A DNA stretch of 64,000 bases, from NCBI GenBank assembly GCA_006384855.1, contig VCJN01001385.1, forward strand, positions 1-64,000. The letters are read 5' to 3'. Under the pieces are notes generated by a model. It made no database searches, was not told the origin of the DNA, and saw only the letters and a program-made list of their open reading frames with translations. Positions 22,711-50,900 of this stretch are shown piece by piece. A program made the translations under genes and the position numbers. Source of the stretch: Tetraselmis striata (Eukaryota; Chlorophyta; Chlorodendrophyceae; Chlorodendrales; Chlorodendraceae). Position 1 is the first letter of the stretch. Each line of letters begins with the position of its first letter.

Positions 22711-25700
22711 TCAGCAGCTGGCGTTGAAGTCGACAATCCTTCTGGCGTAGAGGACCGGTACTGCGGAGACAGCGGCGCAGGCGAGAAGGGGCGGCCAAGC
22801 GGAGGCGCCCGCCAGGCTGTCCCAGCGCGCAGACAGCGCCATGTAGACCGCCAGCTCAGCGACCATGATGGTGGCGCCCAGGAAGTCACCAACGACCCCG
22901 CCGATGACCGCGTACCCGTAGGCCCCGGCTGCGACGCACAAACCCGTGCAGAGGCCCATCAGCGCGGCTGTCCACGCAGGGCCGACAGCCGCCGTGCCGA
23001 TCCCCGCTGCGGCAAGCGTCCCCAGGAGCAGACGGGGCTTGGAGAACAGCCGCTGACTCTGGGCAAACCAGTTGTACATGCCTCGCTTGGCGTCCTCATC
23101 ATCCTGCAGAAAGGCAACAACCATTGCTTATGTCTTGCCCAGTGGAGTGAAATATACAATACTTCATTACCATACGTATGTATAGCCTTTGCTTTCCATC
23201 ACCATGTGTGCAGTACTTCATGTTTCCCTTTTTTTAATATTTACAAATAGGGTTTTTGCATTTTATGGTGATAGCGGGTGGCATCCTGCAAAATTATTGT
23301 GGCGTAGGCGCTAAGGTATCAAATATACCATGGGAAACATTACAAATCTTTCACTGAGATTCAGTTTTCAATTAAAGACCCGATTCTCATCGCCGGATTT
23401 CAAAGCTTATGAAGCAGGGCCGTGCCGGGCAGGATATCTAGCCGCGAAGGCGCCCGATGCCCGGCTCGGTCGCCATGCGTGTAATTGGTCGATAGGCTTG
23501 TTTGGGGGCGGGGGGGGGGGGGGGCGGGGGGGGAGGGGGGGGGGTTGGTTGCTGGCGGGATACAGGGATAATCCTTAGTCGCTACAAGTACCGGTACCAG
23601 TGTGAATTACCGCCAACTCCACAAGACTCAAGACATGAAGACGGAGGCGGTGCTCATTCTCGCGTGGGCTTCTGGCAGCTTTATTGAAGTTGCCCATGAC
23701 GTTGTACTACGCCGTAGTCTCTTGTTGCTTACGCTTTTGTAATCCAAACTAGTGTGAATTACAAAAAAGGGCAGTTCCCCAGAATTAGAAAACCGGTACC
23801 AGTACCTGTACTCGTCGCTACCGATGCGCGAGATCGTTGCCCCGCCCTACCCGCACCCGGGCCGGGCCGCCAGCAAATGATGACGACTACTACGGCGAAA
23901 AAAGAACACATTTGAAATCCCGCGGTGATAATCGTGTCTTATACGAAAAAGTTGTTTCCAGAAAGAAGGAATATGTCGGTCTATTTCAGATTTAGTGCGG
24001 ATACCCGCGGATACACCACAGCAAGGTGCCAGGCGCCGAGATATATATAAACCAAAAAAGTCATAATCTAAACAAGATCACATCATTGTTAGTATAAGAT
24101 TGTTACAGGATCATTCTTAGTAAGATTGTCATATGCACACCGGTAAAATGCAGCCTCTCTTCCTTGCTGACTATTGTAAAGGCGCTGACTTCAGGCTGAT
24201 GAGGTCAATGTTGGAAGCGTACTACCAACATGCATCAGCTATATGCTGCGCTGTCCAGTGAGTCGTGATGAGGGTGTGGGGGGGGGAGGGGGGGGGGGGG
24301 GCAGGTAGTGCTCGCCTGGAGGTAGTGGCAGAAGTGAAGCAGGGGCAGGGAAGTCCAGCGGCCGATGGTGTGAGCGGCCACCAGCGCTCTGGGCACATCG
24401 GCGGGCTCCATCTCGGACAGCAGTGTGAGCTTGGCGTAGGTGCATAACAGGACGCCAACGAGCGCGTAGGTGCCCACACGGCTGTCTTTCATGATGCGCA
24501 GGATCTGCACGCGGCCCCAGCCGCCCCCGAAGCCGTCAAAGCAGTCGCTCAGCCCATCCTCGTGGAAGCAGCCTGGAGGCAGGGCAGGGCAAGCCGCCGT
24601 CAGGCAAAGGCGATACCAGTGCCGAAGCGAAGCAGGCAGGGCGAGAAGACAATGGACTACACGGCACGCCATTGCGCACACACTCTGCCTCGTGAGTTCA
24701 CAGGTGCTTTGGGCGGAACATGTTACGTGCACAGGGTAGGGCTAGGGCATCGCGAAGGCGAGGTGACGTTGCCATGGTCTAAAGGGCTCAGGTGTGAGGG
24801 ACCGTGCCAGTGTAGGCGGTGATGTGGGAGCGGTGTGGGCATCACTACCTGTTAGCCACACGCTTGCCAGGGTGGACAGCGCAGCCGCCACCCCTGGGCT
24901 CCACAGAGTCGCGAGGGCAGAGTACCACACGGCCGCCCAGCACCCCACCAGCGCGCCCAGGGCCGGGAACCACATGGCGGAGCGCATCAGGAAGGCTGGG
25001 TGGTGGTCGGTCCAGTGAGGGCACGGGAGGCGGGTCCTGATGGGCAGGGGCGGGGGGAAGCTTGGCACGTCAAGAAGCAATAAATTGCAGCCTGTGCGGC
25101 ATTGGCAAAGTGCACAACATACCACTGCAAGCGACGCCGGCAGCTGGGGAGGGGGGGGGGGGGGCTTGACTCACAGGAACATCAGACCAGTGAAGCACAC
25201 GCGGACTTCTGAGAAGAGGAACTGGCTGCTGTCGTACGTGTCCTGGTCCTCCTGATGCATGCATGGAGGGAGTAAATGCTATGTGGTCAGGAGAAGGACA
25301 CAGCGACTGCAGATCACATGTCACCACGCAGCCACCCAGCAGTTCCGATCGAAGTGCGCCGCATGCCGTGGCCGGTTGGGGCTGACCTTTGTGCCCGTTC
25401 CCCGGGCCTCGACCTCCTCCTTGCTGATCATCCCTCCCTCTGCAGGGCTGCTCTTGAGGGGCCCTGCGAGGGAAAATGCCGAGTGATCAGGATACAGGTA
25501 AGCAATCAAAAAATGCTTAGCCTGGCTTCGGTGTACTAAAAACCGTTCGCGCCTAGGAATGAATAGGCAGTGCTCTGGATCTTTGGAGGTGGGAATGAGG
25601 CGCATGGCATCCATCGGCAGGCTTTGAGCAGCACGAATCGCGCTCCAGCCAGCAACAACTGCAGCTGGGATTCCTCACCGCCTCGCTTGTTTGGGGCCAT
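22711..25700 (-). CDS. cobS: CobS-like adenosylcobinamide-GDP ribazoletransferase (cobalamin synthase)
   Basis: CobS is a polytopic membrane enzyme joining adenosylcobinamide-GDP to alpha-ribazole (or its phosphate), the last step of nucleotide-loop assembly. Six exons agree in phase: 25679-25700 (MAPNKRG), 25387-25463, 25175-25251, 24849-25036, 24316-24572 and 22711-23103, giving 337 aa. Family signatures: GLMFLTRLPCP (N-terminal LRFLTRLPVP motif), the signature LTGCFHEDGLSDCFDGFGGG with the acidic DG..D...DG residues, ILRIMKDSRVGTYA, and near the C-terminus VVGDFLGATIMVAE. Hydrophobic helices run throughout. The N-terminus is about 70 residues longer than bacterial CobS and may be a targeting or anchoring extension. 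The intron after HFCHYLQ starts with GC (CAG then GCGAGC). Poly-C lies within 15 bases of two donors. Head-to-head with cobT. Confidence 0.9.
23151..24240. other. Long last intron of cobS
   Basis: Within the 1.2 kb intron between the last two cobS exons. Contains an interrupted G tract at 23505-23545 and GGTACC/GTAC-rich short repeats at 23590 and 23790. No nested gene recognised. Confidence 0.5.
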
Positions 25701-25957
25701 CGCGGCTTTTTGTCCCTCGTCCGTGCGCAGTGGCCGAATTCACGCTCCGGCTCCGACAGTGGCCGACAGAACCGTTCTAGCGTATGGTGTCGACCGTGAG
25801 TCTGTGTCAACAGACCACCAGGAGCAGCGCCAGGTTTATTCCGAGCGTTGCTTGCAAGGAGCGAAGTATGATGATGGTGACGACGGCGGTATATGAGGTG
25901 ACGGCGGCGGCGCGATTTATGATGGAAGCGATTACCCGTACCTTATGATGTGTGTGC

Positions 25958-25976
25958 GGGGGGGGGGGGGGGGGGG
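25958..25976. repeat. G19 homopolymer
   Basis: Uninterrupted run of 19 G in the cobS/cobT shared upstream region. Confidence 0.9.
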
Positions 25977-26432
25977 CGACGACGGGCGGAAGTCAATAAT
26001 AATCGCATCATCAGTACCATTACCTGGTACAAGTACCCCGCCCGGCACCTGCTATTATCATCATTGTGTTAATAATCCTTTTACGTACCTCCCACGCGCC
26101 TGGCCTGCTAAATTGCTAATAATTCTTGTGCACTATCTCATGATGTAAAAGCCTGACTACAGGGTAGCGGTAACTCCCATTTATTTCCTGAGTGTACATC
26201 TCCTGCTGAGATAGCGACGTACCGCCGGTACCAATTAAGCTTAGAAATAACCATCGGCTGGATGCGCTCCAATGAGCCGATGATAGCAAGTCCTCGCCGC
26301 GCGTGGGCGGATGGTTTGCTCACAGACTCGCAGGGATAGCGTCCAGGAAATTCACGGAAAAGTACGTAGCGCTATTGGGGAAGGACGGTGGACGGCAATT
26401 GACGACCGGTCGGCCTGGATAAGTCAGTCCGT

Positions 26433-26480
26433 TTATATTGCGGGCGCACGGAAGGTCTCGTGGCACCGCCCGCAATATAA
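26433..26480. repeat. Perfect 14-bp inverted repeat with 20-base loop
   Basis: The arm 26433-26446 (TTATATTGCGGGCG) is the exact reverse complement of 26467-26480. The loop, 26447-26466, contains a smaller CACG/CGTG pair. It lies between divergent cobS and cobT, about 360 bases upstream of the cobT ATG. It could be a hairpin, a cruciform, a small MITE-like element or a dyad binding site. Confidence 0.8.
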
Positions 26481-26838
26481 CTACCAGTGCGGCGGCGGTC
26501 GTAGCACGCAAGAGATACTCCTGTGTGGTCAAGTATATATGCTGCATTATATCGAGCGCGCCACGCGCGCCGGCAGCTCGCGTGCGCAGGAGCATCGTGA
26601 GCAAGTCGTCGCCGCCGCCGACGACTACACTGTGAACGATGGGTTGATGCGCTGCTGATGGAATGGGAAGCAGTGAAGCACAATAACACTTGACGATTAT
26701 TCGGCTGCTAGTGTCAAGGCACTCCTCTCCGTAAAGTTGCACCCGTAGCGGAGGGCTGTGCGTCGCTGCGACGACCGGACGGCACATAACTCAACGCGCC
26801 GACAGGTGGATACGTGTATTCTTACCCGCGGCGAGCCG

Positions 26839-29276
26839 ATGGCTGCGGTTGAGGGGAGCTTCGAGGCCGAGGCCCGAGCGGCGATTGACTCCAAGGCCAA
26901 GCCTCCGGGCTCATTGGGCGGCCTTGAGGATTGGGCGGTGAAGCTATGCGCTTTGCAGCAGACGCTTAGGCCCGTCGGAGGCCCCGCGGCGACTCTCATT
27001 TTCGCGGCCGACCATGGCGTGACGGCATCAAGGCCGGTATGACGCACGCACGCACAATACATGCACCTACATACAAGAGCATGTAAGAGTCTACAGTGTA
27101 TTCAACTATTCCAAGCATACATTTAAACGCCGTAGCTTCATATCTAACAAATTATGCGCGGTATTTAGAGCCAGCGAGAGAGAGCGAGGAACCTCACATC
27201 CCAGCAGCCGCGGGGGCGCGCAGAGAACGGAAGGGGGCTGAGGGGCATCGCCCCATCCCGATTGGTTATGTGGCTGCAGCCCCGTTAGATTTTGGGAGGA
27301 ATTCCGGAGGAGGCGCAAATGGCCGCCTGCATGTGTGGCGTCGCTCGCGCTTTCCACCCAAGCACGGCCCAACGCCCCCTGGGACGGCATCAGTGCGGTG
27401 CCTACTAAAAATAAGTAAGGGCGCGGGGATGTATCGATATGCAGGCTAGCGGATCACTTGCGGGCTTGCTGCGTTGATCAGTCGGCGTCTTGAGGAGCGG
27501 TTCTGTGCTGCATTTTCCATGATTCATTACGTTAATTCGATGGTGTGAGTACTGAACATGGTATCATTATAACAGAGTGTCAAAATCACTTGGAACACAC
27601 AAGTCACATTTCAGCATCACGGAGACCGCCTGCTTGGCTGCTTTGCTGGCTAATTGGACTGACAGGTTGGCCATCCGGCGAGGTGTCCTCAGGTGTCCGC
27701 GTACCCCCGAGCCGTCACCACCGCCATATTCCGAGCCATCGCCAAGGGGCAGGCAGCCTCCAGCGTGCTGAGTGCCGCCCAGGGCATGACGCTCATGCTG
27801 GTGGATGTGGGAGTGGACGCTGATGTCGCGGACCTGCAGGGGGATGGAGTGAATGTCGTTGTCCGCCACGCCAAGGTGGGGGCATCTGCTGGGGAGCTGG
27901 CGGGCACACGTAGGGGAAGGGGGGGAAGGGGGGTGGGGGCACTGGGGCTAACTCACATTGTTGGCGGTGAGACCGGCGACCCCGCAGGTTTGCCACGCCA
28001 CGGCGGACTACGTTACCTCCCCAGCGATGACGCCAGGCCAGATGGAGGAGGCAATTCAGGCGGGCCGGGGCGCCGTGGCTGCCCTGCATGACGAGGGCAT
28101 CCGGGCGCTTTGCCTTGGGGAGCTCGGGATCGGGAACACCGCCTCGGCGGCTGCCCTTCTCGCTGCGGTCCTGCCCTGCGCCCCACCCTGCTGCCACAGC
28201 ATTGCAATGAGTGCGCCATCAGATTCATTGCTGTGCACGGCGCCATGCGACGCAGGCAGACAGCTTGCAATGGCACACAGAAGGATATAGCTGACGGTGT
28301 GTATCTGTGGCGGACCCATGCGATTGACGCGGCAGCTCTCCGGGCGCGCGGTGGAGGACGTAACGGGCCGGGGGACGGGGCTGGACGACAAGGGGGTAGC
28401 CGAGAAGGCCAGCATCATCAGCCAGGCGCTGCAGCGATGCTCAGGCTCGCACACCAATCCTAGAGAGCTGCTGCAGGTGAGAGAAGTCACAGCCCGACGC
28501 AATCACCGCTGCATTTAGCCGGTAATGATGGCGGAACGTATACGTATACAGCAACTACATGTACGAGAAATCACTGCACCCCAAAGACACCAAAGCTGCA
28601 TGCGGGCTGTGCATCGATGACGGTAATGTGTACGAGTGCAAATGCTACCGAGCCCCACTAGCCGTGGTGTCACCAGCTTGAGCTGCTCCGGGTTGTGCCC
28701 CTGCTATGTGTGATGGCTTACGGCCCGGGCTGCAGGAGGTCGGAGGGCTGGAGCTGGCCGCCATGGTCGGTGCGGTCTTCGAGGTGAATCAATCCCAAGC
28801 CAGCGTCCTGTGCTCACTGGCATGAAACGGTGGTCGCTGCGCCAAGCCACGTGGACTTACTGGTGGGGCATGCCGGTGTGTTTTCTTCAGGCGTCCGAGC
28901 GGCGCGTGGCGGTGCTGGTGGATGGCTTCATCAGCGGCGCGGCGGCTCTGGCGGCGCTCCGTATGGACCCGTCAGTGTCACGCGCCCTCTTCTGCGTACA
29001 CAAGAGCGCCGAGGCTGGCGGGGCAGCGCTGCTCGAGGTGCAGAGCCGGTCTGGCTTTCAGCGGCGGCTTTCTGCATGTGCCGACGCTGCCTTTGATGGG
29101 GCTGACGGCTCTGGTGTGGCATGTGGCGCTGAGCGTAGGCGCTGGGGCAGCCGGCTCCGCCACTGGATCTCAAGTTGCGGCTTGGGGAGGCTACTGGGGC
29201 CATCCTTGGGGCGCCACTGCTCAAATCAGCAGCCGCTCTGATGACGATGGCCTCTCTGGAAGAGGCAATGAGCTGA
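26839..29276 (+). CDS. cobT: CobT-like nicotinate-nucleotide:dimethylbenzimidazole phosphoribosyltransferase
   Basis: CobT transfers the ribose phosphate of nicotinate mononucleotide to 5,6-dimethylbenzimidazole, giving alpha-ribazole-5'-phosphate, the activated lower ligand of cobalamin. Seven exons agree in phase: 26839-27036, 27693-27875, 27988-28167, 28336-28476, 28736-28783, 28891-29037 and 29151-29276. They give 340 aa, the usual CobT length. Signatures in order: KPPGSLGGLEDWAV, FAADHGVTA, VSAYPRAVT, LVDVGVDADV, YVTSPAMTPGQ, LGELGIGNTASAAALLAA, VTGRGTGLDDKG, EVGGLELAAM, VAVLVDGFISGAAAL and C-terminal LDLKLRLGEATGAILGAP. The GELGIGNT and LGEATG loops hold the catalytic glutamates of the family. 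The start is the first ATG before the conserved core; no obvious targeting peptide is seen. The exon 3 donor (GCG then GTCCTG) is weak. Neighbour of divergent cobS. Confidence 0.93.
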
Positions 29277-29353
29277 TGTTATAATTCCGCCGCGACGATG
29301 AGGCGACATGGAGCGCAATTGTTGACCTCATTCATCATTTATTGCACCATGAG

Positions 29354-29377
29354 CCCCCCCCCCCCCCCCCCCCCCCC
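29354..29377. repeat. C24 homopolymer
   Basis: Uninterrupted run of 24 C about 80 bases after the cobT stop codon. Confidence 0.9.
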
Positions 29378-29735
29378 TCTAAGCGCCCGAGCGCGGCTCA
29401 TCAATAGCTGCATCAACCCTATTTGCAAAATAGAAAGTAAGTGCTCCGAAACCAAATTGCTGCATTGAAGCCACCAATCTGCAAAAATCCTTGTTTGCCA
29501 TGTTGCTAAGCGCCTGAGAGCGCACGATGGTGGCTGTGTCATAGCGTATGGGTACGAGTACAGTGCACCAAACAGAGTGCTCCAAACAGACCGTACTCCC
29601 GCCCCAAAGAAAACAACCACAAGAACATCTTTGCAAGGGGGTGGTGTGACGTGTAACCACTGCAAAGCCCTTATTGAGCTCAGCAGCAGCGCATTGATGA
29701 GTGCTGCGTGCATGAACGGGTTTTTTAAAAACCAT

Positions 29736-31431: not shown

Positions 31432-34400
31432 ATGTTCGGCGAGGGCGGCGGGCCGGGCGAGGCGGCGCGGTCGGTGGAGGACGCGCGCACCTTCCGGGCG
31501 CCCAAGCTGTGCGTGACGGAGCAGCGCCTGCCGGAGGTGCCCGCAGGTCTGGCGCACCAAGAATTCGCAGCACTCCCTCAGCTGCCAGACCGCTGCTGCT
31601 TGACACAATACACACTCATAACCGCGCAACCGAGCCCCACCGGCCAAGCTCATTCCGGATGCGCTGCGCTCCAAAATTGAACACATTGTTAATTTATTTA
31701 CTTCATGGATAATGGGCAAATTGAAGATGTAAACTGTGGCTTGACGCGGGGCGGCCTCGCTGCTGCACCTGCAGGTGTGGAAAGCCTGCGTTTCCTCGAG
31801 GAGCTGGACCTATCCGGGAACCGCCTGTCGGCGATCCCGCCAGGCAGCGTCCCCCCCACCCTGCACGGCGTCACGCTGACGGGGAACAGCCTGGAGGAGC
31901 TGCCGGAGGCGGTGCTGAGGCTGCCCGCCCTGCAGCGCCTCAACTGCGGCGCCAACAGGCGAGCTGCTGGTCCCCTCCCTCGGCCCTCCGCGTTGCCAGC
32001 TACCAAGCCCCCTGTGAGCCGTGCGCTGCTCGATCCGCTCCCGCGCCTCCATGCCCCCCTCCGCTGCCAATCCACACAGAAGCTCAGCGTGGCCGACAAT
32101 GCGGCGCCCGTTCTGCACCTGACGCATTGCTGCGCACACATTGCGACGTCCAGGCTGTCCTCCTGCGATGCCATGTTCACCTGCGGCAGCCTCCTGCACG
32201 CCGGGCTGAGCTACAACAAGATTTCGGAGCTGCATGTGCCGGAAGGGCATGTGCGCCGCCCCGCCCCGCCACCCCGCGATTGACCCCACCCCCCAATTGC
32301 CATCATGCACCCTCGGCGGCGCCCTGACCCGGATCTACTGGCCTCACCCGCGCCTCGCAGCCATTGATGTCCCTGGACCTCGCGAACAACCACCTGGAGG
32401 ACCTGGACCAGACACTGTCCGAGCTGGAGAAGCTGCCGCGGTTGGCGGCTCTCTCCCTGCAGGTGGACACCCCTCCGCTAGCCCCCCCGCCCGCCTCAAT
32501 GATTCGCGGCTCCATGCGCGGCTGCCGAGCGCTGCCCTTGCGGACATCTGAGGCGGGCGGGCTGTCGGCAGGGGAACCCATTCTGCCTGCGGAAGGACTA
32601 CCGGGACGCGGTGCTGCAGCGGCTTCCGCAGCTCAGGTTCTTCGAGGGCAAGGTGCGCCCCCTCCCCCCCCCCCCCCCCCCCGACCTCCCCTTACCCCCC
32701 AATCGATTTGTCCCTACTGCCCACACCCATGTCCCCACCTCTCATCAAGCCCTGATAGGGACGGGCTTGATCATACCAGGCATGCCGTCTTTATCCCCGT
32801 CCACATATCCACCTCTCGTCATCCAAGCCTCGAACTCCATGTCCCCATCCCTCACTCATCCTGACCCTCCCCCCTCCATCTTCCATCCCCATCCCAACGT
32901 CGATTCTCATAGCGTCATCACAGCTACCAGCCGCGCCATCCTACCTGTGACATAACATGGTGACCCCTTTCACCCACGTGTGCGCATTGCGCCCGCAGAA
33001 ACGCATTGTCAAAGACACAGACGCAGGCGCGGAGGAGGCGGCGGAGGAGGGGGGCGCGCAGCAGGACCCTTTCCCCATGCCGGAGGGAGGGCAGGTGTGC
33101 ACAGACAGCCCCCCGCCCGCCCACACTCTCGCACGCACGCATGCACCCATGCGGCATGGGCACCCCCTGCCGCGATTGCCACCACTGCCGTTGCCATTGC
33201 CATGCTCCCCTCCTCTGCTGGCTGGCCGGACTAATTGAAAGCACCATATAACAATGCGTTGATATGTATGAAGTATATTAACAAAAACTTACGTATATAT
33301 ATGTACATATATAGTGCTGCATATACATTGATACTTATTGAAGTGTGTATATATAAATACATGTACATGTAAACATGTATACTTTTAATTGTATATTTAT
33401 ATGTATATATGTACTTATATATCTATATGTCTATATGTATCCATATATATATTATGTATATGCTTACTAAGACATTAATGTAACTGTACTATAATGTAAC
33501 AATAATGTAATACGCGTAGGCAGACGGTACAGATGGGACTGATCGCTTGGGTGCCGTCATGGGTGCCGTGTTGGGCGCCGCAGACGGCCGGGCCTGGTGC
33601 TGATGGAGACTCGGAGCCGGGCACAGTCGAGGTACGGCGATGTTGGTCCTTTGCAGTGAGCGCCTGGCGCTGCAGGCGACCGCGCGGCATGGTGGGCGCT
33701 GAGCTACCGGAGAGTCCGCACTCCCAGGTCGCGCAGGACTCGGCGGACTGCGTGACGCTGCGCCTGGAGATGGGCGGCCTAGCCGTGAAGGACCCGCACC
33801 CGCCGCGCGCCCCAGGTGCCGCCACGGGCTTAACCCTAATCCCTATAAACTCTAAATCTGCCCTTTCTCCACCGCTGTGACTCCCCCTTGATGTCAGCTT
33901 TGCGCCTCCGACACGGCCGGGTCGCGGCGCACGGTACTGACGCTGGCAGAGTGGCCCGTCCCGCCACGGCAGAGTGGGCCGTGCCCGCGGAGCCGGCTGC
34001 CGGGGCAGCCAAGGCCAAGAAAGCGAAGGCGGAAGGTGCGCTTCGGTGCCCCTTCACAATTGACCGCCCGAGTTTGCTTTCCTGATGTACGCTATTCACG
34101 ACGGCTTGTGTATTGATGGTCATGGTTATGATTATTTTCCTTCGTGAATTTTAAAACTTCTTAAAATAATATTCATAAATAGTGTCATTTTCATAGTAAT
34201 GATAACATAATGACGTCATTCCAGTGGTCTCATCTTTTTATGGTACCCTCCACTATAACATGCTGGTACTCTAACCTTAAAGTCGTGGTCGTTGTTATTA
34301 CCGCCAGTGTATTGTAACGGCCCATACGCCCATGTTATCATTGTTAATTGTTCCTGTCTACAGCCCGTCCAGTCTGGGCGGCTGCTTGGCGCTTCCGCGG

Positions 34401-38917: not shown

Positions 38918-41900
38918 CTACAGCGCCTCGGCGCGCACGCAGTGCGCGAACTCGCCGAGCAGTCCAGACACGTACTCCGCAAACTGCCCCGCGGCGACGT
39001 CGACGCTGCCCAGCGCGGGCGGCTCCGAGTGCCGCGAGGTGTCGCAGGCCTCGGATGACCCGGGCGAGAGGCGGGCGTCGCGACCGTCCCGCTCCGCATG
39101 CACCCCCAGCAGCAGGCAGATCTCGAGGTACGCCGCGGCGCCGTCCGCGCGGCCCTCCTCCGTCAGAGCCCTGCGCGACACGAACAGAAGCGGCGCGATC
39201 AAGCGGCTGCGGCGACATTGGGTCATCGATCTCTCCGACGCCGCTCTGCCATGTGTATTTATACACATGTATAGACAGATATAGAGAGTTATATAGACAG
39301 ATATACATGTATTCACATATAATGCCCAAGTTATGCTGCCGGCACTGGGGTAGCTTTCCCGACTGTGGATCATCGCTCTCCAGACGTGGCACACGCAGCG
39401 ACGTTGTAGTATACAGTGTACTACTCGCCAGTACTATTTTAATGTACAGCATCCGGGCGGACGCCCATGGCAATATACATAGTACACCCAGGATAGAAAA
39501 AACGCGGATGAATTTTGTTCCACGAGTAAATAATATGACCACTGGCCTAAATTATGACCCGTGACCCGGTGAGTAGCTCCACACGGCAGAAGCTAGAATA
39601 TTTTGTTTCACCTGACGCGCGCAAAGTGAGCTCTGAGCTGTGCGCTTTACTAGCTAGGACTTAATTTCCTTTCCTGGGCGGTGTACTCTATACACTACAG
39701 AACCACTGCTGGAAAGCAACGCACAGAATTGTGGCCAAGTGTATTGTGTTTTATAAGGGCAGGCGGGTTACATGCATGTGTGAATCCTGATAAGACATAA
39801 AATAATTCTGAAAAAGAAAACATCACTGCCAGGCTGCGGCGAAGCCCGTATCGATTTATCCAGGGGGGGGGGGGGGGGGGGATTCACCGGAGTGCCGCCC
39901 GGTGGCAGCCCCCCGCGGTGAGGAGGCCCACCGCGCGCCACAGGCCGCCCTCCACCTCCAGCACGTGCTCCGCCCAGCGCTCCAGGACGGCGCTTCGCTC
40001 CGCGCCCGCCAGCTGCGCCGCCGCCAGGGTGGCTGCGTGCCGCCACAGCCCTGAGTCCTGCCAGGGACACCACCAGGGGGGGGGGGGGGGGGGCAATGCG
40101 GGAAAGTTCACAGTTAGTTCACGGTTTGAGTGAAGTTCACAGTTTACGTCTGGAAATATCCCGGGAAGTGACAATTACACCTAAGTAAATACCAAACGTT
40201 CCAAAGTCAATCCAAACCCATTTTTTTACCCAAATTCAGTTGGAAAAGACGGGACTGAATTTGGATAGAGTCTCCGAACAATAATTTAGGCTGTCGCTGC
40301 ATTCCGGCAGAGATTCAGAGGAGAGCGCCCTGAGCTGCTGGGAGAGCGCTGACTGACCTGGAGCAGAGTCGCCGCCTCGGTGGGGAGACCTGTGTGGCGG
40401 TTGGGAGGGGAGGTTGGGAGGGGCAGAGGGTTGAAATAGTCCCAGGCCGTGATGACGCAGAAAGAGCGTGTCGGTGCGTGTGATAAAAAAGGGAGGAAGG
40501 GGGCGGCTGGGGGGGGGAAGGGGGGGATACAGATGAACGGGTGCCGATGCGGCATTATGAGCACTGCGAATGAGAGCCTGCCAGCGGTCAGTCGTAAACG
40601 GAACTATAGCGGAATACAGCGAAGGTTCTTATATGCGGCATGATAGTGGTCCAAATTGAGGCTTATCGAATACAGCGAAGGTTCTTATATGCAGGCCCAA
40701 TTTGAGGCTTATCGTAAGGGCTGTCGAGTAGAGGCAGGTGCGCCTGCGCGCGTGCAGCATGATTGTGCCATCGATGGCGGGCGGAATGGCGGCCTCGCGG
40801 CCGCGGCGCACCGACGGAGCAGAGCAGCGGGACGCCCAGCTGCGCGTCCCCCATCGCGGCGGTGTTGGCCGCCACCACCTGGCGGGCGGCGCAGCGCGGA
40901 TGAATCAGGCAGCCAGCGTGTGTCAGATCGCGCGCGCACCGGGTGACCTCCGCGCAACATGTGTGAGGCCTGCTGGCCCGCTGGTCTGGTACCGAAGGAG
41001 GCGGGTAAACTCAAGACTGTCCTTGAGCGTGCCGCCGCGTAGATCACGGATATATTTACGTTTTATATTACATATGATAAAAATGGCATGCCGTAACTAC
41101 GAGTACAGGTACCCGTACTCGTACACGGTAGTACGCAAATAATGTAATCCAGTAGTGCGGGTACTCGTACCGGGTATCGGCCGGTAGTCGCTGCTAAAAG
41201 AAAAGTTAAGTTCGCCCCGGGACATCGGCCAAAGCCGCCCCAGCACTTGACCTCTTGCTGCGCCAACTGCAGTCGTAGGTGAAAGGCCTTAGACTGTTGC
41301 CTTATTCGAAGCCCAAAGGGCGAATGCATCAACCGGGTAGACCCGGGACACGCCGGGCCGATATTGCCGAAATACATCGACCAGGAATGGATTCCGGGAC
41401 CTCTTGCATACGAGACGACCGCTCAACCGAGCGGGCAAGGGGATGTCGCTGCTACTAACTATTATCCAAAGCACGAAAAACGAGAATACCATTTGCGCGA
41501 ATTTGTGAACGAATATCATTGTCCCCATTTACATTGAGGAAAAGTTACTGAGAAAGTCATTTGCGATCTATCGAGGACCGCTTGGGCACAAGTTGTAGGT
41601 TATATTTGCATTTACGGTATCGACTTTTGGCCCAATTCGATCTCGGCTAAGGCCGTCAAATCTCGACGTGCCCAGGTGCCATTCGACGCGGAATGGCCGA
41701 GGTTGAAGTCCGAAGTTTGCTTAATTTTCCAATACTTCGCGTTTACATTTTTGCGTCACCCAAAAACACCTCCACTAGGACAGTCTGGAGTATACCCGCC
41801 TTATAGAAGGAACAAATGACTCGCAGCACGAGATGTCAACGTGCGCAGCCGACAGAACCCTCCGTTGGCCCATCGGATACCATCCAGAAAGTTAGTGAGC

Positions 41901-44900
41901 GACGACGATTCCGCCATCCTTCACGGGGGTCAAGCGCCCCGCCAGGCCGAAGGTGGTCAGAGGATTGCAGCAGGGGCGGACCTTGGCGGCTTGGATGTGC
42001 AGCGATGATGTCGCCGCGCTGCTGGCCGAGGTGGCCGCCGCCAGGCTGTGCGCACAGGCACACACACACACATATACACACACAGTGGCATCACGATGGC
42101 AAGTCAGATGTACTGTGGATACTGCGGCCAAAGCAAGGCTCCACACGCAGGCGAGGGGGGAAATGACAAGGGTTAGCGCAGAGTTAGCCCTGTGGAGCCG
42201 CACGCGGCGCGGCGCACCTGATGGTGCAGAGGGCGTTGCGGAAGTAGCGGGTCGTTTGCTCCGGCGTCGAGGCCAGCAGGAAGCCCACCTGCGTCATCGC
42301 AGCGACCTCAGCTCACAGCTCCCACCAGCATGCTCCTGCGCCTACTTTGGCCGCGAGCGTATCACATTGCGACGATGACGTAGCCTCTCAAAAGGAGACA
42401 CAACAGGAGGAGCGAAGTGGGGGTGGGGGGGTCTGGAGGATGATGGCGTGCTTGCAGCGGTAAATCACTGCCGACATGACACGGAGAGGTCGCTGTTGGA
42501 GGTGAAGGTGAATTGGGGATCGCTGCGCTCATGGGAGAAAACACAATAGGTAGAAGGGGGTGGGAGGGTCATAGGGTGATGAGCAACGTGGCCGCACCGC
42601 GCCCTCAAAGTCGCCCAGGGTGACGTACTGCAGCACCTGCCGCTCCTGCAGGATCTCCTGCGACAGGGAGGACGTCGAGGCGCCTACCGCGCCGTCGCGC
42701 GCGATGCGCTGCCATCGCAGATCCAGAGGAGCAGCCGCGAGAGGGACGGGCATGAGTGGGGGCAGCGGGGGACGGAGCGTAAGCAAGATGGGGAGGGGAG
42801 GGGCTTGGACAGCCGCTGCCTTAAGCTCAGCGCCGCACCTCGTGCCATTGGGAGCGCTGGCGCGCGGCCTGCAGCACGGCGGCTGGGCTCCACAGCGTGC
42901 CGCTGCTGGGAGGGGCAGACGGGGCCGCGGCGGGCTCGGCGGCATATGGGGCCGGCGTGGGCAGCGTAGAGGAGGGGTCCCGTGGAGGCGTAGTCGGGGT
43001 GGGGCTGTCTGCTGCGGAGGGCGCATGGGCATGCGGGCCTGGGGGTTCCAGCAGATGCATCGAAGGCTCAGGCGGCGATCTTGGCGGTGCCGTCGTGTCG
43101 TGCCTGTGGAGCCAGAGCAGCCCTCTTAATCGATTGATGTGGCGCAAAGAGAACGAGGGGAGGGGAACGGGTGAGGGGAGGGAGGCACGCTTTCATGGAA
43201 GGATTTCCGGGATGTCTTGTGTTACTCGTACTCAAGGGGGTTTTGTGGTTACGATTAGTGGCGACGGCACGGTTGAGAACCAAAAAGCCTTAAAAACTAA
43301 TGCGGTTCTGCCGCACGACACATTGACTCCGACGAGGGCATGCCAGTGTGGCCGATACGGGGCTACAGCCGATACTTTATCGGAGATTCGTCCCTTGTGG
43401 AGGGACATATTTGTTAGTTGGTGTACGACGTTATGCTCGTGTGGGTAGTTCCACCTTCTGCTGAACAAGTTGCGGTGATATGTGGGAAAGCATCCCCAAT
43501 GATGGATGGAATATATGCCTGAGGGCGTGTGGAATCTGTAAACGATGAGGAATACTAGGCGGGTGCAAATGGGGAAAGGCGCGGTAACTCAAGGACTTGT
43601 CGACAGGAGTTCGGCGCGCATCGATGACCGTGTTATCGCTCCGATGTATGGTTTCGGAGCACATAAAGTCGCCATCTCACAGCCTCGAGGGTAGATACCT
43701 CGACTCCATGGCACCTTCCAGCGTTGGTACAAGATGAGCCCAAAACGCGGCCTCGTCCAGGTTGCTGCTGACCTCGGCGGCGAGCTCCATCCGGGCGGCG
43801 AGCTCGCGCGCCGCCAGTTGCGGCCTGGCGGGCTTGGGCTCCGTCGGCGGGTCGGTCGCGCACATCGACAGCCTTCGCGAGGAGCAGACGCTCTCGTACA
43901 GCGCCAGCTGCGAGGCGCTTAGGAGGCGGCCCCGCAGGAGACGGAGCAGGTCTTGAATGAGCCGCAGCAGCATCAACGGTTCCCCCCCTGAGGATGGCGC
44001 CTCCACAGGTGGGGGCGCCGCATCGTCGGGAGAGGTCGTCCCCTGTCGAGCGCTGTCGCCTAGGGCGCTCCGTGGCTCGTCGTTACTATTCGTCGAGCGG
44101 CGGTGCGGGTACGCGTTCAGCAGCACGTTACGCAGCGACGAGCCCAACGAAGCAGGGGGCTCCCTGGTCTGATCGACGCTTGGACTCGATGGAGGGCTGG
44201 GCTCCGGTTGGCGATCATGTGGCTGATGAGCTGCAACCTGCGCCGTGTGGTGCAAGAACTAAGGAGTGAGTGATGAACGACCAGACACGCGCGTGACGAC
44301 AGCAACGGACTTCGATGACGACAGTATCGTGTTCAGCGACATGTGGACGACGTGCCGAGAACGAGGCGCAAACTACCCGATAGGCTCATCGTCCGCTATA
44401 TGTACATAATATTATGCATTGCAACATACATTTGTTATAGTATGTACCCTAGTAATTATTAATATTTATTTATTTAATATTTATCGGCGGTGAGCTTCAT
44501 TGCCGTACGGGTACCCGCATTGTGCAGCGGATCGGGCCTATAGGTGCATGGCAAAAGCGCTTATCTACTGTCATGTGCTACTAAGTACTATAATCCACCC
44601 ACCCGCCCGCCCGCCCGCCCACGGTCCTTAATTACACAGCCGTCCGATTACGATCTCACGGTTGGGAGGCTATGAGTACTGGTACTCGCTACTCACTGCT
44701 GGTAATGGAAAAAAAAACTCTGGTACTTCGAAGCGTTGGCAATGCAATTCATGGAACTGGAAGCCAGTGATACAGAACCCGTTCTTTTAAAATTTCCTGA
44801 AAATCGACGCATTGCTGATTCAACTGTCAAGTTACTTCATGATATATGATACTATGATAACACGCGCTTGCTTTCTTTCGACTCTTTTATACTGTTCCAC

Positions 44901-47900
44901 ACTCACGACGCGCCGATGATGAAAACGTGCGCGGCAGCAGAAGAAATAGCGACGCTCACCGCCCAGATATGCACAGTGTTTCAGAGTCTGAACAGGGCCC
45001 AAGAATGCGTATGCGAGGAGAAAATGCAGCCAGTATATACGAGTGACATAACGATGACGTCGGAAGACTAAAAACACGGACTGCCGTCATTGCTAATCTG
45101 ACCAGTACGGCAACAGCAAACAATCCGCTGCCAACATGAAGTGCGTTACGGGTAGCATTACTCGCAGCATTACTCCGGCATATTGGTACAGTACTGGTGC
45201 GTGGGGAGGCAGACGGGCGCCAACCTCAGCGCCGCTGCCTGGCTGCGCTGGCGGCATGCTGGCCGGATGCCGGCAGTCGTGGGGGAATAGCCCCCACAGC
45301 TCGGCCTCCGCGTCCCGTGCTTGGTGCGGGACATCTCCAGGCAGCTCGGGCTCGAGGCTGGGGCCGCCCTCTGCCCGGCAAGTCAAGCACAATGCCATGC
45401 AGGCGGTGACATCAGCCCCAAGAGCAGCGGCAACGGCGGCATGGAACCGTCGCTGAATGGCGTAGAATCTAACAATCATACTACAATGGAACCGTGCTGT
45501 GACGGTATGGGCCGGAACCCCAATGGATGTCAGTCTTATTGGGACAATACCTTGCGCAGGCAGGGCCTCCTCGGCCCCAGGAGGTTCTGCTTCTGAGACG
45601 GTGTGATCGTCATCATCAGACGGGCGCTGCCCGGAGACTTGGGGCGGCAAAGGGTGCCAGTCCGCCGTAGGTTCGTCCCTCTCAAAGAGGCGCTCGATGC
45701 GCCCCGGTTGCAGCATATCCGCCGGGACGCCCAGCAGCAGCAGCAGCCGCAGGAACTTGACCGCGGCGGGCGGCAGCGCCAGGATGGTTGCTGGCCGGCT
45801 CTGAGGGAAGGAGCAGGCGGTCTGGACGGGGGGCGGGCCGAGGCAAAGGGGAGCTCACGTGAGGCTGCTGATCCACAGCAACGGATGCAGCGTGTGGACA
45901 GCCTCGCCATGCTGGCCGCCAGAGAGCCCATGAGACATCACGCCGCGCGTCATGCGATCTTCCCAGCGCGTCGCGTGCCGAGCGACGACTGACACGGTTG
46001 TAAGCATGAGGGTATGCGCCGCGCGATCGTGAGGCATTAGATGCCCCGCGCACGAAAGGTAATCGCACGAGAGGACCCTTGACTACCGCAGGAGGAGTCG
46101 TGCAGGATCACACATTCCCCTCATCGCACATTAGCGATCGGTGATTGGCGAGGACAAGAATCCCAGCTACCGGGTAGTGATTTCGGCGGCTGCTGTTTCT
46201 CATGTCGCCTACAACCCGCAGAGGGCCCATTGATACTGGGAGCTGCTGGCCCCGGTCCACACATGATTCGGCTACCACTTCCCGCTCTTGACCTCCCATA
46301 AACACGTTGGAACAGGTGCTTTCCAAGACCCGCCGTGACAATTAAGATGTCCATATACCGTACGAGTATTTGTACGTGTACAATGTGTACCTGAGGCCAC
46401 GACGGGTACCGGTATATATACGACATCACGCCGCAGAGTGGCCAGCGTTGTGGTTTTGAAACGAACGTTGCCGAGATTGTTGCACTGGTTTCGGAGCATG
46501 AGTCTGGATCTGGAGCATGGATCTGGAGGTCACCGATTCAAGCCCTGATGATGTCAGCCGGCAGAATATCTGTCCGCTTGGGGGGGGGGGGGGGGGGGGG
46601 TCATGTAGTGTGACAATTACGGGTACGATATACAATGGGTAAGTACTACTACAATGTTTGCCTGAGACTGCGAGTATATGTGCAATATAATGCTGCCGTA
46701 TGGCCAGCGTTGTGCTTTTGAGGCGAATGTCCGTGAACTCGCAGGATGAGCCGCACCTCGCTGGCGACGTCCGTGAACGCCTCCATCACGTCGCCGCGGA
46801 GGCCTGCCGAAGGCGTGGATGGCGCAGTCTTCGGGGTGCTGGCGCCGGGGGCGGCCGCTCCACCTTCGCGCAGAGAAATGAACGCCAGGCTCGTGTCCTC
46901 CGCGGCAGCAGCCAGCATGCCGCCGGTCCCGCCCGGCCGCGGCAGTGGCAGCCAGTACAGCCCCGTCATGCGCACGCTGCCGGCGCCCTCCGCGTCCAAC
47001 TGGCTCGTGACGGGGACGGGGCGGATGGAGGAGCGCGCGTCCAGCTCCCAGATGCCCCACTGGCCGCTGCTGAAGAGGACAGCCACCTTGGCGATGGGGT
47101 CCCACATGGACGGCGGCCCCGCGTGCCGTGGGACCATCAGCCTGCCAATGCCACCCAACCACACAGAGCACACAAGGACAAGGCGGTCAGCCACAGTCGC
47201 CGGATGATAGCCGGCGCCCCCTTCCTCCCCCAGCTGCCCAATCGACCCAGGCGAGCACAGAAGATGGTATGTGCGAGTCGCCAGTGTGACAATGGTTAAC
47301 ACAGTTCCAGTCACTCATGCCATCACCCTGCAGGATGGTGCTGAAGCGATCCCACACGCGGGATCCCCGAGTCAGCCGTGCCATGCCGTATGCGCTTATG
47401 ATCACCCATGGGGCCCACGCCGCACCAAGATGCAGTCCGGGATGAGCCGTTGCCCAAGACTCATGCAGTGCAACAGGATCGAGTGAGGGGTCATGCCGGG
47501 TCGCACGATTCCCCGTCATGCGCCCCAAACGTGGAATTGCATGATGGAGCCCATTCATCGCCACAGGTCAGCAAGGGGGGAGTAGGAGGGAGCAGCCGGG
47601 CACATCTTGTGGGCACGTTGCGAGGAACGGTCCGGCTGCGGCATAGCTCAGCTTACCCGCATGGCGCCACCTGGACCTTGCGCACCGGGCCCATGCCGGT
47701 GGCCAGCGAGGAGGAGCGGCCGGTGGAGGTGTCCCAGCGCAGCAGATTGCCCTCCGCATCGCCCAGCAGCACGTTGGTGCCCCACGCCGCCAGCGCCATG
47801 CCGACGCACTCGCTGCCGGCCAGCAGCCCCCACGACGGCCGCCGCGGCTGCGTGTCCGCAATGCGGCGCCCCTGTTGAACAACGGCGCCGACAGGAAGCG

Positions 47901-50900
47901 GTGGCGCTCAGCCATCTGCGCCAGCCGGCCCAACACGGCGCAGGCAGCAGCAGCAGCAGCAGCAGGCGGTCTTTCGTGACGACTCGAATACGGCCATGAT
48001 GTCCTTTTGCGGCCTGACGATTATCATGAACCAACACCTGGGCGTAACAGGCTTCTCATACCGCCCGACTCCAAGCGTTGTCATCTCTACCTGACGTCCT
48101 GGGGGGACCTTCCCACCCCATCCGAGGGGTGTCCTCACACCTTGTCTCAAGGCCAAGTTCCAAGTCAATCTCCGCTACCCCCCCCCCCCCCCCCCCTGTA
48201 ACGACTCTCGACAGATTCATCGCTGAGGCGGGGCTGTCGCCTCAATTCGCAACGTCACCGGGGTGACCGACGCCGCCCTTCCCCGGTCCGTCGGCGCCAG
48301 ATGACCCCACGCTCTCCTCACCTTTACCGCCAGCATGCCAACGCGGCCGTCCGCGAGAGCAAACGCCAGGCGCTCCTCCGGATACTCCGCGTCGGCGCTC
48401 TGCGCATCCTCTCCCTGCAGGTGGGGCGTTCCGGACGGCACAAAAAGACACCCGTCCACACCTGAGAACATGAGGTGGGATGAGATGGACCCAGAAAGGC
48501 AGGCACGCCACGCCAGTCGCACTCGCGCAGAGCTGTCGCTTGTCGCGTGTCGCATCGTGATTGGCGTTGCGGGTGGGGGACGCACCTTGGGGGCGCTCGG
48601 GGCGCGGGGCGCGGGCGGCGCTGGGAGGGACCACTTGGCCCACTTGGATGGGGTGTCCGGCGCGTGCGCGGCGTCGCTGGGCAGCACCCACTCCACGCAG
48701 GTGAAGGGCAGGTCGAGCACGCGCACGCGCTGCGGCGCCGCGGTGGCACCCACCTGCCCACCGGAGGGAGCCGGCCAACACACGAGTGAGCGGGGCCATG
48801 GGACAGCCGTCTCGAGGTGTGACGCCGTTGAGCACAAAGGCAGGAAAAAGAAAAATGCGAATGAAATGAAATGCGGCCGCATTGTTTGCTGCTACTCACC
48901 AGTTATTGGATGTCTTAAAAACGATCCAAATAAAAGTGCTATTCTATTCAGCTAATATTATTCATAGCTAATATCATTCATTATTCATTATCATACTCGT
49001 TCTCATGATTTATTGTCATTTCTATTTCATTTATCATACTTTATTTCTCTTCGATTCTATTCAGTTCTATTTCATTCTTGACTTCATCATTGATTATTGA
49101 TTATGCAGCTAATACCCATTTATTGCAGCTTGCGGTGTTAAAACACATGAGCAGCTTTAAATCACGTGCGAAGCTGCGACACCTCCGGATGGCAACGAAG
49201 GGGGTTCAATGTAAACGATGGCAATTCCTCCAAAGGATTTACGAGTAACGGAAGAAAAACAGTCGACTGGTTATTTAGTCAAGCAGATACACCGTCCAGT
49301 CGGGTGTATCTCAGCGCATTGCCTCATCCGGCGGGGTCATTGCGAGGAGGGAGGGATGGATACACCTGCGGGCGCTGCCGGCATGATGCTTAAGAAGGAC
49401 AACCCAGGCAGAGGAGGCAGGGGGGGGGTGCACCACCCAGATCTCCGCCGGAGCGCCGCGGAAGAGGATGAGGAGGTAGCGGCCGGACGGCGAGGACCTG
49501 ACCGCCAGCATGGGGGAGATCTCGGGACCGACTTCGCGGAAGGGGAGGCTTGCGCGACTGCGGCAGGGGAATCCACAGCGCCGTGGCGTCAGCGCACGCG
49601 GAAGGACGCACACGCCGGCCGCAGCGGCGCGTCGCATTGCATGGCGGCAAGCGGCACCTCTGCATGTCGGTGAGGATGATGCAGTTGCGCCAGCCGTGCT
49701 GCTCCTTCTTGCAGCTGAAGCTCACCAGGCGCGGGGTGCTCCCCAGCCAGCGCAGCCCGCGGATGACCTCCTTGTGGACCTGCGCAGGCGCCGGCAGGGC
49801 ACAGCAAGATACATCTGCGCGTGACCCCCGCGTCAACACGTCCTACAGTGGTAAAACAGCCTGCCCTCAGTATATTCATTCCCCCAGGCTCGTCCCCCTC
49901 CCCGGCCCACTCTTCCGGTCCCCAACACATGCACGTACTCACTTACTTATTGATACAACCTATGCTCAGTGCTTTAAGCCAATCACGATGACGTTGCAAC
50001 CTAAAGCCGACTGCAGCTTCATGAAAGGCTGCTCTCTCCCTCTCCCTCTATATATATGTATGCATATATACATCTGTACATACATATATATTTATATTTA
50101 CGTACATAAGATAATATGTATGTATGTCTGTATGTATAAATATATACATGGATATGGATATACATTTCATATTCACATATATATATGTTTATATAGTGTG
50201 TGCGTGCGTGTGTTTATATGTCTGTGCACATAGACATTTAAGGCCGTCACTGTACATATTGCGGCGCCATCCCATACACTATCCAAGTGAGGTCATAATA
50301 GGCGTTCAATGCAATGCGGACTGTGCTTACGAGCGTGAGGTGGTCGGGTGGGGGCCGGCCTCTATCCCCTCACCTCGAGGCTGACGCTGATCACCGGAAG
50401 CAGCTGGCCGCCCAGACCCATACGCAGCGTGAGCACGTTGACCATGCCGTTGCCTGTGACCGCCGCCACCGTCACCATCGCGCGCGAAGCCGCTGGGCCG
50501 GGGCCGGCGGCCACGGGGGTGGGGCAGACCGCGAAGGAGGTGACGCCCTGGGGCAGCGCCGCCTGCAGGCTCACCAGCCGCGGTGTCGGCAGCCGCTTGG
50601 GAAGCGACAATGCGATGGACGGAACGGCCTGCGGAGGCAGCAGCGCACCGGCGAGCGCCAAGTCAGCAGGGCAACAGGACAACAGCATGGGCGTGGGTGG
50701 GCGATTAGGAGCGGCGGCGAGATGATCTGCGCACTCACCTGCTTTGCCGCCGCCGGCCCGGGCGCCGGCCCCCAGTCGATGTCCCACGTCCAAACACGGC
50801 AGTCCGCCGTCACCACCGCCACCACCAGGCTCTCCTGCCGCGGCGCCACGGCTACCCGGGAAGCGCCATCGCCGTGTCGGTCAGATGCTTCGAGCACGCC

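Follow-up and report, generated by a model that had tools for sequence, protein, structure and literature searches.

A head-to-head cobS–cobT gene pair in the nuclear genome of a green alga and its probable role in B12 remodelling

The question raised by this locus is whether two neighbouring genes that resemble bacterial cobS and cobT are genuine nuclear genes of an alga, what they would do there, and whether their adjacency has any meaning. The names CobS and CobT are used here in the Salmonella sense; the cobaltochelatase subunits that are also named CobS and CobT are unrelated. Within the window (the whole stretch of DNA analysed, 64,000 nucleotides), the features of the locus are as follows.

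22711..25700, minus strand: CobS-like gene (adenosylcobinamide-GDP ribazoletransferase, or cobamide synthase), 6 modelled exons, 337 aa
25679-25700, 25387-25463, 25175-25251, 24849-25036, 24316-24572, 22711-23103, minus strand: modelled CobS exons in transcript order
24316..24572, minus strand: CobS exon 5, with the HxDxxxDxxD loop and a GC donor at its 3' end
22711..23103, minus strand: last CobS exon, which bears GxxGDxxG
25701..26838: intergenic region between the two ATGs, 1138 bp, candidate shared or paired promoters
26839..29276, plus strand: CobT-like gene (nicotinate-nucleotide:dimethylbenzimidazole phosphoribosyltransferase), 7 modelled exons, 344 aa
26839-27036, 27693-27875, 27988-28167, 28336-28476, 28736-28783, 28891-29037, 29139-29276, plus strand: modelled CobT exons
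29139..29276, plus strand: last CobT exon, which holds the aligned catalytic glutamate

The initial annotation had described a CobS-like protein of 337 amino acids on the minus strand, and we recovered the same length. The Pfam profile PF02654 spans the joined model in a single stretch (145.8 bits against a cut-off of 23.2, E = 2.5e-42), with residues 56-294 aligned to profile positions 2-206 of 207, so that the gathering score was exceeded over the full domain. The protein matched five NCBIfam equivalog models, all curated for bacteria and archaea, and fell under the cut-off of every one (best NF001277, 181.1 bits vs 273; TIGR00317, 77.8 vs 110; three others also below). On its profile match the protein is assigned to family PF02654 and is predicted to work like CobS; our claim stops short of NCBIfam equivalog status. 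The loops HxDxxxDxxD and GxxGDxxG are described as important in Salmonella CobS in the accessible text of PMC8092220, and they are fitted here by HEDGLSDCFD at residue 125 and GVVGDFLG at residue 276. In a Kyte-Doolittle hydropathy profile, windows of at least 1.5 were confined to 85-103 and to the interval from 232 to 331. A PDB search returned no solved structure resembling CobS at E ≤ 1. In the gene model, four of the five introns have GT-AG borders and the last has GC-AG borders (donor GCGAGC, identical in a second copy of the locus on contig C666); the intron phases are 1, 0, 2, 1 and 0.

For CobT, the identity and the plus strand proposed earlier were upheld, and the length was revised from 340 to 344 amino acids through the choice of acceptor for the last intron. 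An acceptor 12 bases upstream (GCGTAG) would explain the difference, and it was chosen because it restores an 'EALG' stretch common with Thermus CobT. All six introns in the model are GT-AG and in phase 0; the donor after exon 3, GTCCTG, is weak by eye. The joined protein matched PF02277 with 334.2 bits (E = 1.1e-99) in a single stretch, residues 4-342 corresponding to profile positions 4-327 of 329. It also passed the cut-off of the equivalog model TIGR03160 (329 vs 319.3 bits; residues 7-342 aligned to positions 4-332 of 334). Its closest solved chains were those of Thermus CobT (1wx1, E = 6.7e-58, and 1j33), followed by ArsA 4hdk. We take Glu317 of Salmonella CobT to be the catalytic base and would expect a counterpart near the C-terminus; E316, in LRLGEATGA, aligns with the glutamate of LALGEGTGA in Thermus CobT. 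The use of dimethylbenzimidazole (DMB), rather than of other bases as in the ArsAB type, is predicted. Loss of key residues would have counted against the earlier reading; the CobS loops known from the literature and the glutamate of CobT are all in place.

The assembly searched comprises 224 Mb in 2903 contigs; it is fragmented and has bacterial contigs among its members. Plastid rbcL was found on contig C1177 with 1gk8 as its best PDB match, which we take to be the Chlamydomonas enzyme; the host is therefore a green alga. In the whole assembly, PF02277 and PF02654 were matched only on the contig of the window (C1114) and on C666. The latter is colinear with window positions 1-54496, with segment identities of 84.2-95.5%, and C666 carries an additional stretch of about 7 kb opposite 19.1-19.4 kb of the window. 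Since C666 represents either an alternate haplotype or a homeologue, it does not count as an independent case of conserved synteny. The cobS–cobT linkage is kept there, and none of the 13 exons showed a gap between the copies. The two CobT copies differ by 8 synonymous and 2 non-synonymous changes (dN 0.0027, dS 0.0292, dN/dS about 0.09), and the two CobS copies by 8 and 5, respectively (dN 0.0066, dS 0.0322, dN/dS about 0.2). The CobS and CobT models are not products of chance, and both are intact genes under purifying constraint. The complete, phase-consistent exon models of the initial annotation are borne out by the ungapped frames of both genes in C666 and by the Pfam profiles that span each joined model.

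Bacterial contamination or an assembly artefact might be suspected as the source of the pair, since bacterial-looking contigs with B12 genes do exist in the assembly (CobU on C2098, METH on C695). However, the pair holds 11 introns of spliceosomal type, a second colinear copy exists, and pieces of a spliced WDR11 gene lie in the neighbourhood. Moreover, bacterial CobT proteins are only 34-45% identical in matches of more than 100 residues, which also means that any transfer must be old. We give this explanation next to no chance. Introns in both genes, spliced neighbours and a second algal copy all agree with the nuclear residence first proposed. The window contains 488 open reading frames of at least 70 aa. 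A larger B12 cluster around the pair was considered and rejected: in the 19 reading frames run against Pfam, only leucine-rich repeats and pieces of WDR11 were matched. The leucine-rich-repeat gene lies downstream of CobT on the plus strand (31693-32861; matches at 31693-32280 and, weakly, 32328-32861), and the pieces of the spliced WDR11 homologue lie on the minus strand (39887-47907; matches at 39887-40174 and 47656-47907). ARAGORN and Rfam gave nothing in the window, and a viral scan of 73 stretches gave no relative.

The start codons had been placed 1.14 kb apart in a head-to-head arrangement, and the measured distance is 1138 bp. Bidirectional-promoter pairs are defined in the accessible text of PMC7817982 by transcription starts within 1 kb. 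The algal pair resembles such eukaryotic pairs in its divergent transcription and functionally related genes; here, however, the 1138 bp separate start codons. Between the two copies, the intergenic region differs at 93 of 1125 aligned sites (8.3%), and all 11 introns differ less (0-5.6%); a conserved shared promoter is therefore not favoured. No difference was found at 25601-25800, around the CobS start, and only one at 26201-26300, while the blocks 25901-26000 and 26301-26400 have 20 differing sites each. A pair of proximal promoters separated by loose DNA would fit this pattern no less well than a single shared element. Poly-G or poly-C tracts were noted in the introns and flanks (23509-23543, 24280-24300, 25958-25976, 29353-29378), and some of their lengths differ between the copies.

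The assembly was also searched for other B12 genes. One interrupted (spliced) METH gene, on C1302, is algal; a second METH match, an 840-aa frame on C695, looks bacterial and was rejected as the algal gene. Canonical METE was not found, as no PF08267 match occurs in the assembly at E ≤ 0.001. The METE catalytic profile PF01717 gave one match above its cut-off (C1134:24692-25252), which covers only profile positions 144-312 of 324. It sits inside an 1848-aa frame of unusual multidomain composition, with carrier-protein (PP-binding) repeats, a METE catalytic-like domain and an FAD/NAD oxidoreductase, and it was rejected as METE; this protein may nevertheless supply a non-canonical METE activity, a caveat on the absence of METE. 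A spliced nuclear methylmalonyl-CoA mutase (MCM) was found as nine pieces on C2006, and the accessible text of PMC11439496 names Tetraselmis and Chlorella among green algae for this enzyme; the host is possibly a Tetraselmis. With METH present and canonical METE not found, the alga most likely depends on external B12.

Other candidate partners in the pathway did not appear as algal genes. The search for CobU or CobP gave a single PF02283 match (C2098, E = 6.1e-60), which was rejected as algal because it lies among intronless, overlapping genes of bacterial type, together with cobW and an ACT-domain reading frame. CobC had six matches in the assembly, none above the cut-off, and the best, on C1804, was rejected since it lies beside apparent bacterial dapB and phosphoglycerate mutase reading frames. 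Neither CbiZ (PF01955) nor CbiB (PF03186) was matched in the assembly at E ≤ 0.1, and the one BluB match reached 25.2 bits against a cut-off of 150. These absences (METE, CbiZ, CbiB, BluB, CobU, CobC) rest on a fragmented assembly of 2903 contigs; the profile searches did recover spliced genes in it, such as the nine MCM pieces, six CobT pieces per copy and METH. Four contigs have a bacterial look, i.e., C2098 (CobU), C695 (METH), C710 (intronless MCM) and C1804 (phosphatase/mutase), and such contigs possibly come from a bacterium that shares the culture with the alga and makes B12.

We consider it likely that remodelling, i.e., exchange of the lower ligand, is the function of this CobT–CobS pair, two intact, divergent nuclear genes in an alga predicted to depend on B12. 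CobT would transfer phosphoribosyl from nicotinate mononucleotide to imported DMB, which would give alpha-ribazole phosphate, and CobS, a putative membrane protein, would attach this product to the corrinoid side chain. Poorly usable cobamides such as pseudocobalamin would then be converted into cobalamin for METH (and MCM). The B12-remodelling module of the initial annotation is consistent with a B12-using host, with intact genes and with published work on Chlamydomonas and Pavlova; as for its operation, we infer the enzyme activities, the physiological remodelling role, the dependence on an external base and any co-expression.

According to the accessible text of Helliwell et al. (2016; PMC4850488), COBT, COBS and COBC are present in C. 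reinhardtii and expressed in P. lutheri, and both algae, when given pseudocobalamin together with DMB, turn it into a form that can be used. The same text reports no CbiZ or CbiB among the algae that it analysed. The present alga is like these two in having the same two enzyme families in a eukaryotic alga in which CbiZ and CbiB were not found. The text makes no mention of any linkage between the genes. In C. reinhardtii, moreover, METE is present as well; its canonical form was not found in the present assembly, which would be expected of a B12-dependent alga of the P. lutheri type.

Bacterial CobT and CobS are established as last-step enzymes, and the algal pair might accordingly finish lower-ligand precursors taken up from outside, such as alpha-ribazole together with activated cobinamide, with no base exchange on intact cobamides. 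Free alpha-ribazole is described as influencing oceanic communities, protists included (PMC9296465, accessible text). However, CobS requires GDP-activated cobinamide, and no algal CobU was found in the assembly. Furthermore, growth of a B12-dependent mutant of C. reinhardtii was restored by pseudocobalamin plus DMB and not by cobinamide plus DMB, according to the available portion of PMC4850488. We judge such completion of precursors to be quite improbable, and remodelling remains our preferred reading.

Remodelling demands a step that removes the original ligand. The accessible part of PMC7733943 describes the genes for remodelling in algae, and the enzyme that opens the cobamide there, as yet to be identified, and notes that the two algal species lack CbiR and CbiZ. 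Given the present gene set, CobS is left as the candidate for this step in algae. More tentatively, and with clearly less than even expectation, we propose that in a genome without CbiZ, CbiB, CobU and BluB the linked CobT and CobS alone would make up the remodelling core, with CobS exchanging the ligand. CobS would reverse its own reaction with GMP or swap bases directly; acting on pseudocobalamin or its 5'-phosphate, it would release the adenine nucleotide and accept the alpha-ribazole phosphate made by CobT, and no free cobinamide would arise. If true, CobS exchange would name the ligand-removing enzyme of algae, would account for the success of pseudocobalamin plus DMB in Chlamydomonas where cobinamide plus DMB fails, and would make cobS–cobT a minimal, transferable eukaryotic remodelling island. 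CobS of Vibrio cholerae has been mentioned as a remodelling enzyme (Ma et al. 2020, as cited in the accessible text of PMC7733943 and PMC8092220), and PMC8092220, in the same portion, treats this as a proposal without in vitro support. The algal protein would resemble the proposed Vibrio one in acting on cobamides without CbiZ. However, in our tree it did not cluster with the four rows of Vibrio CobS, and the Vibrio host is bacterial.

We explored the linkage of the two genes in 43 bacterial CobT loci of roughly 4 kb each. CobS was present in 32 of them (same strand in 31, of which 30 have it downstream and one upstream; divergent in one), and it lay within 150 bp of CobT or overlapped it in 22 of the 43, all orientations counted. 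The sole divergent case (L040) belongs to a Bacteroidales MAG. Eleven loci had no CobS, and 4 of these 11 span at most 542 bases downstream. Thus the neighbourhood is a bacterial habit in which the divergent order is rare. The algal pair resembles bacterial cobT–cobS salvage loci of the E. coli cobTSU type in having the same families as neighbours; however, those loci are mostly tandem (30/43), whereas the algal genes are divergent and intron-bearing, with no adjoining cobU seen.

Trees of CobT and of CobS were each built from the window and 31 of the 43 bacterial loci, with L056 and the 11 loci that have no CobS excluded. The algal rows were placed on long branches (1.62 for CobT and 1.31 for CobS). 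A Granulosicoccaceae MAG (L023) was nearest by path for CobT and had the joint lowest path length for CobS, and no bacterial donor was resolved by either tree of 31 loci plus the window. The adjacency probably descends from a bacterial cobT–cobS linkage or has been kept since the genes are only useful together; a single transfer of cobT–cobS followed by inversion, or a later regrouping, is possible.

An accidental linkage, in which real genes became divergent neighbours with no functional or historical meaning, was also weighed. Divergent neighbours are many in compact algal genomes, and no part of the locus changes as fast between the copies as the middle of the intergenic region. However, two given genes would adjoin by chance in only about 2 in 15,000 cases, if a haploid gene number of about 15,000 is assumed, and the same two genes adjoin in most bacterial loci (CobS within about 4 kb in the 32 loci above). 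Mere accident is therefore unlikely in our judgement, and we prefer inherited or maintained linkage. No published report of cobS–cobT linkage in a eukaryote was found in a search of largely open-access literature. The algal CobT and CobS enzymes and their tie to remodelling are already published; what is new is the physical linkage and a sharpened question about CobS.

The finding of the cobS–cobT pair is real, useful and of moderate surprise. Pseudocobalamin is the main cobamide of cyanobacteria, and most algae use it poorly, according to the accessible text of PMC4850488. The linked pair probably lets an apparently B12-dependent alga convert this inferior cyanobacterial form of B12 into a useful one. 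In an alga that bears METH, in which canonical METE and the known cobamide openers were not found and CobT and CobS adjoin, the candidates for the enzyme that opens the cobamide are narrowed down to CobS, or else a novel enzyme. Should further algae prove to have the same linkage, it would serve as a marker for phytoplankton able to live on cyanobacterial B12.
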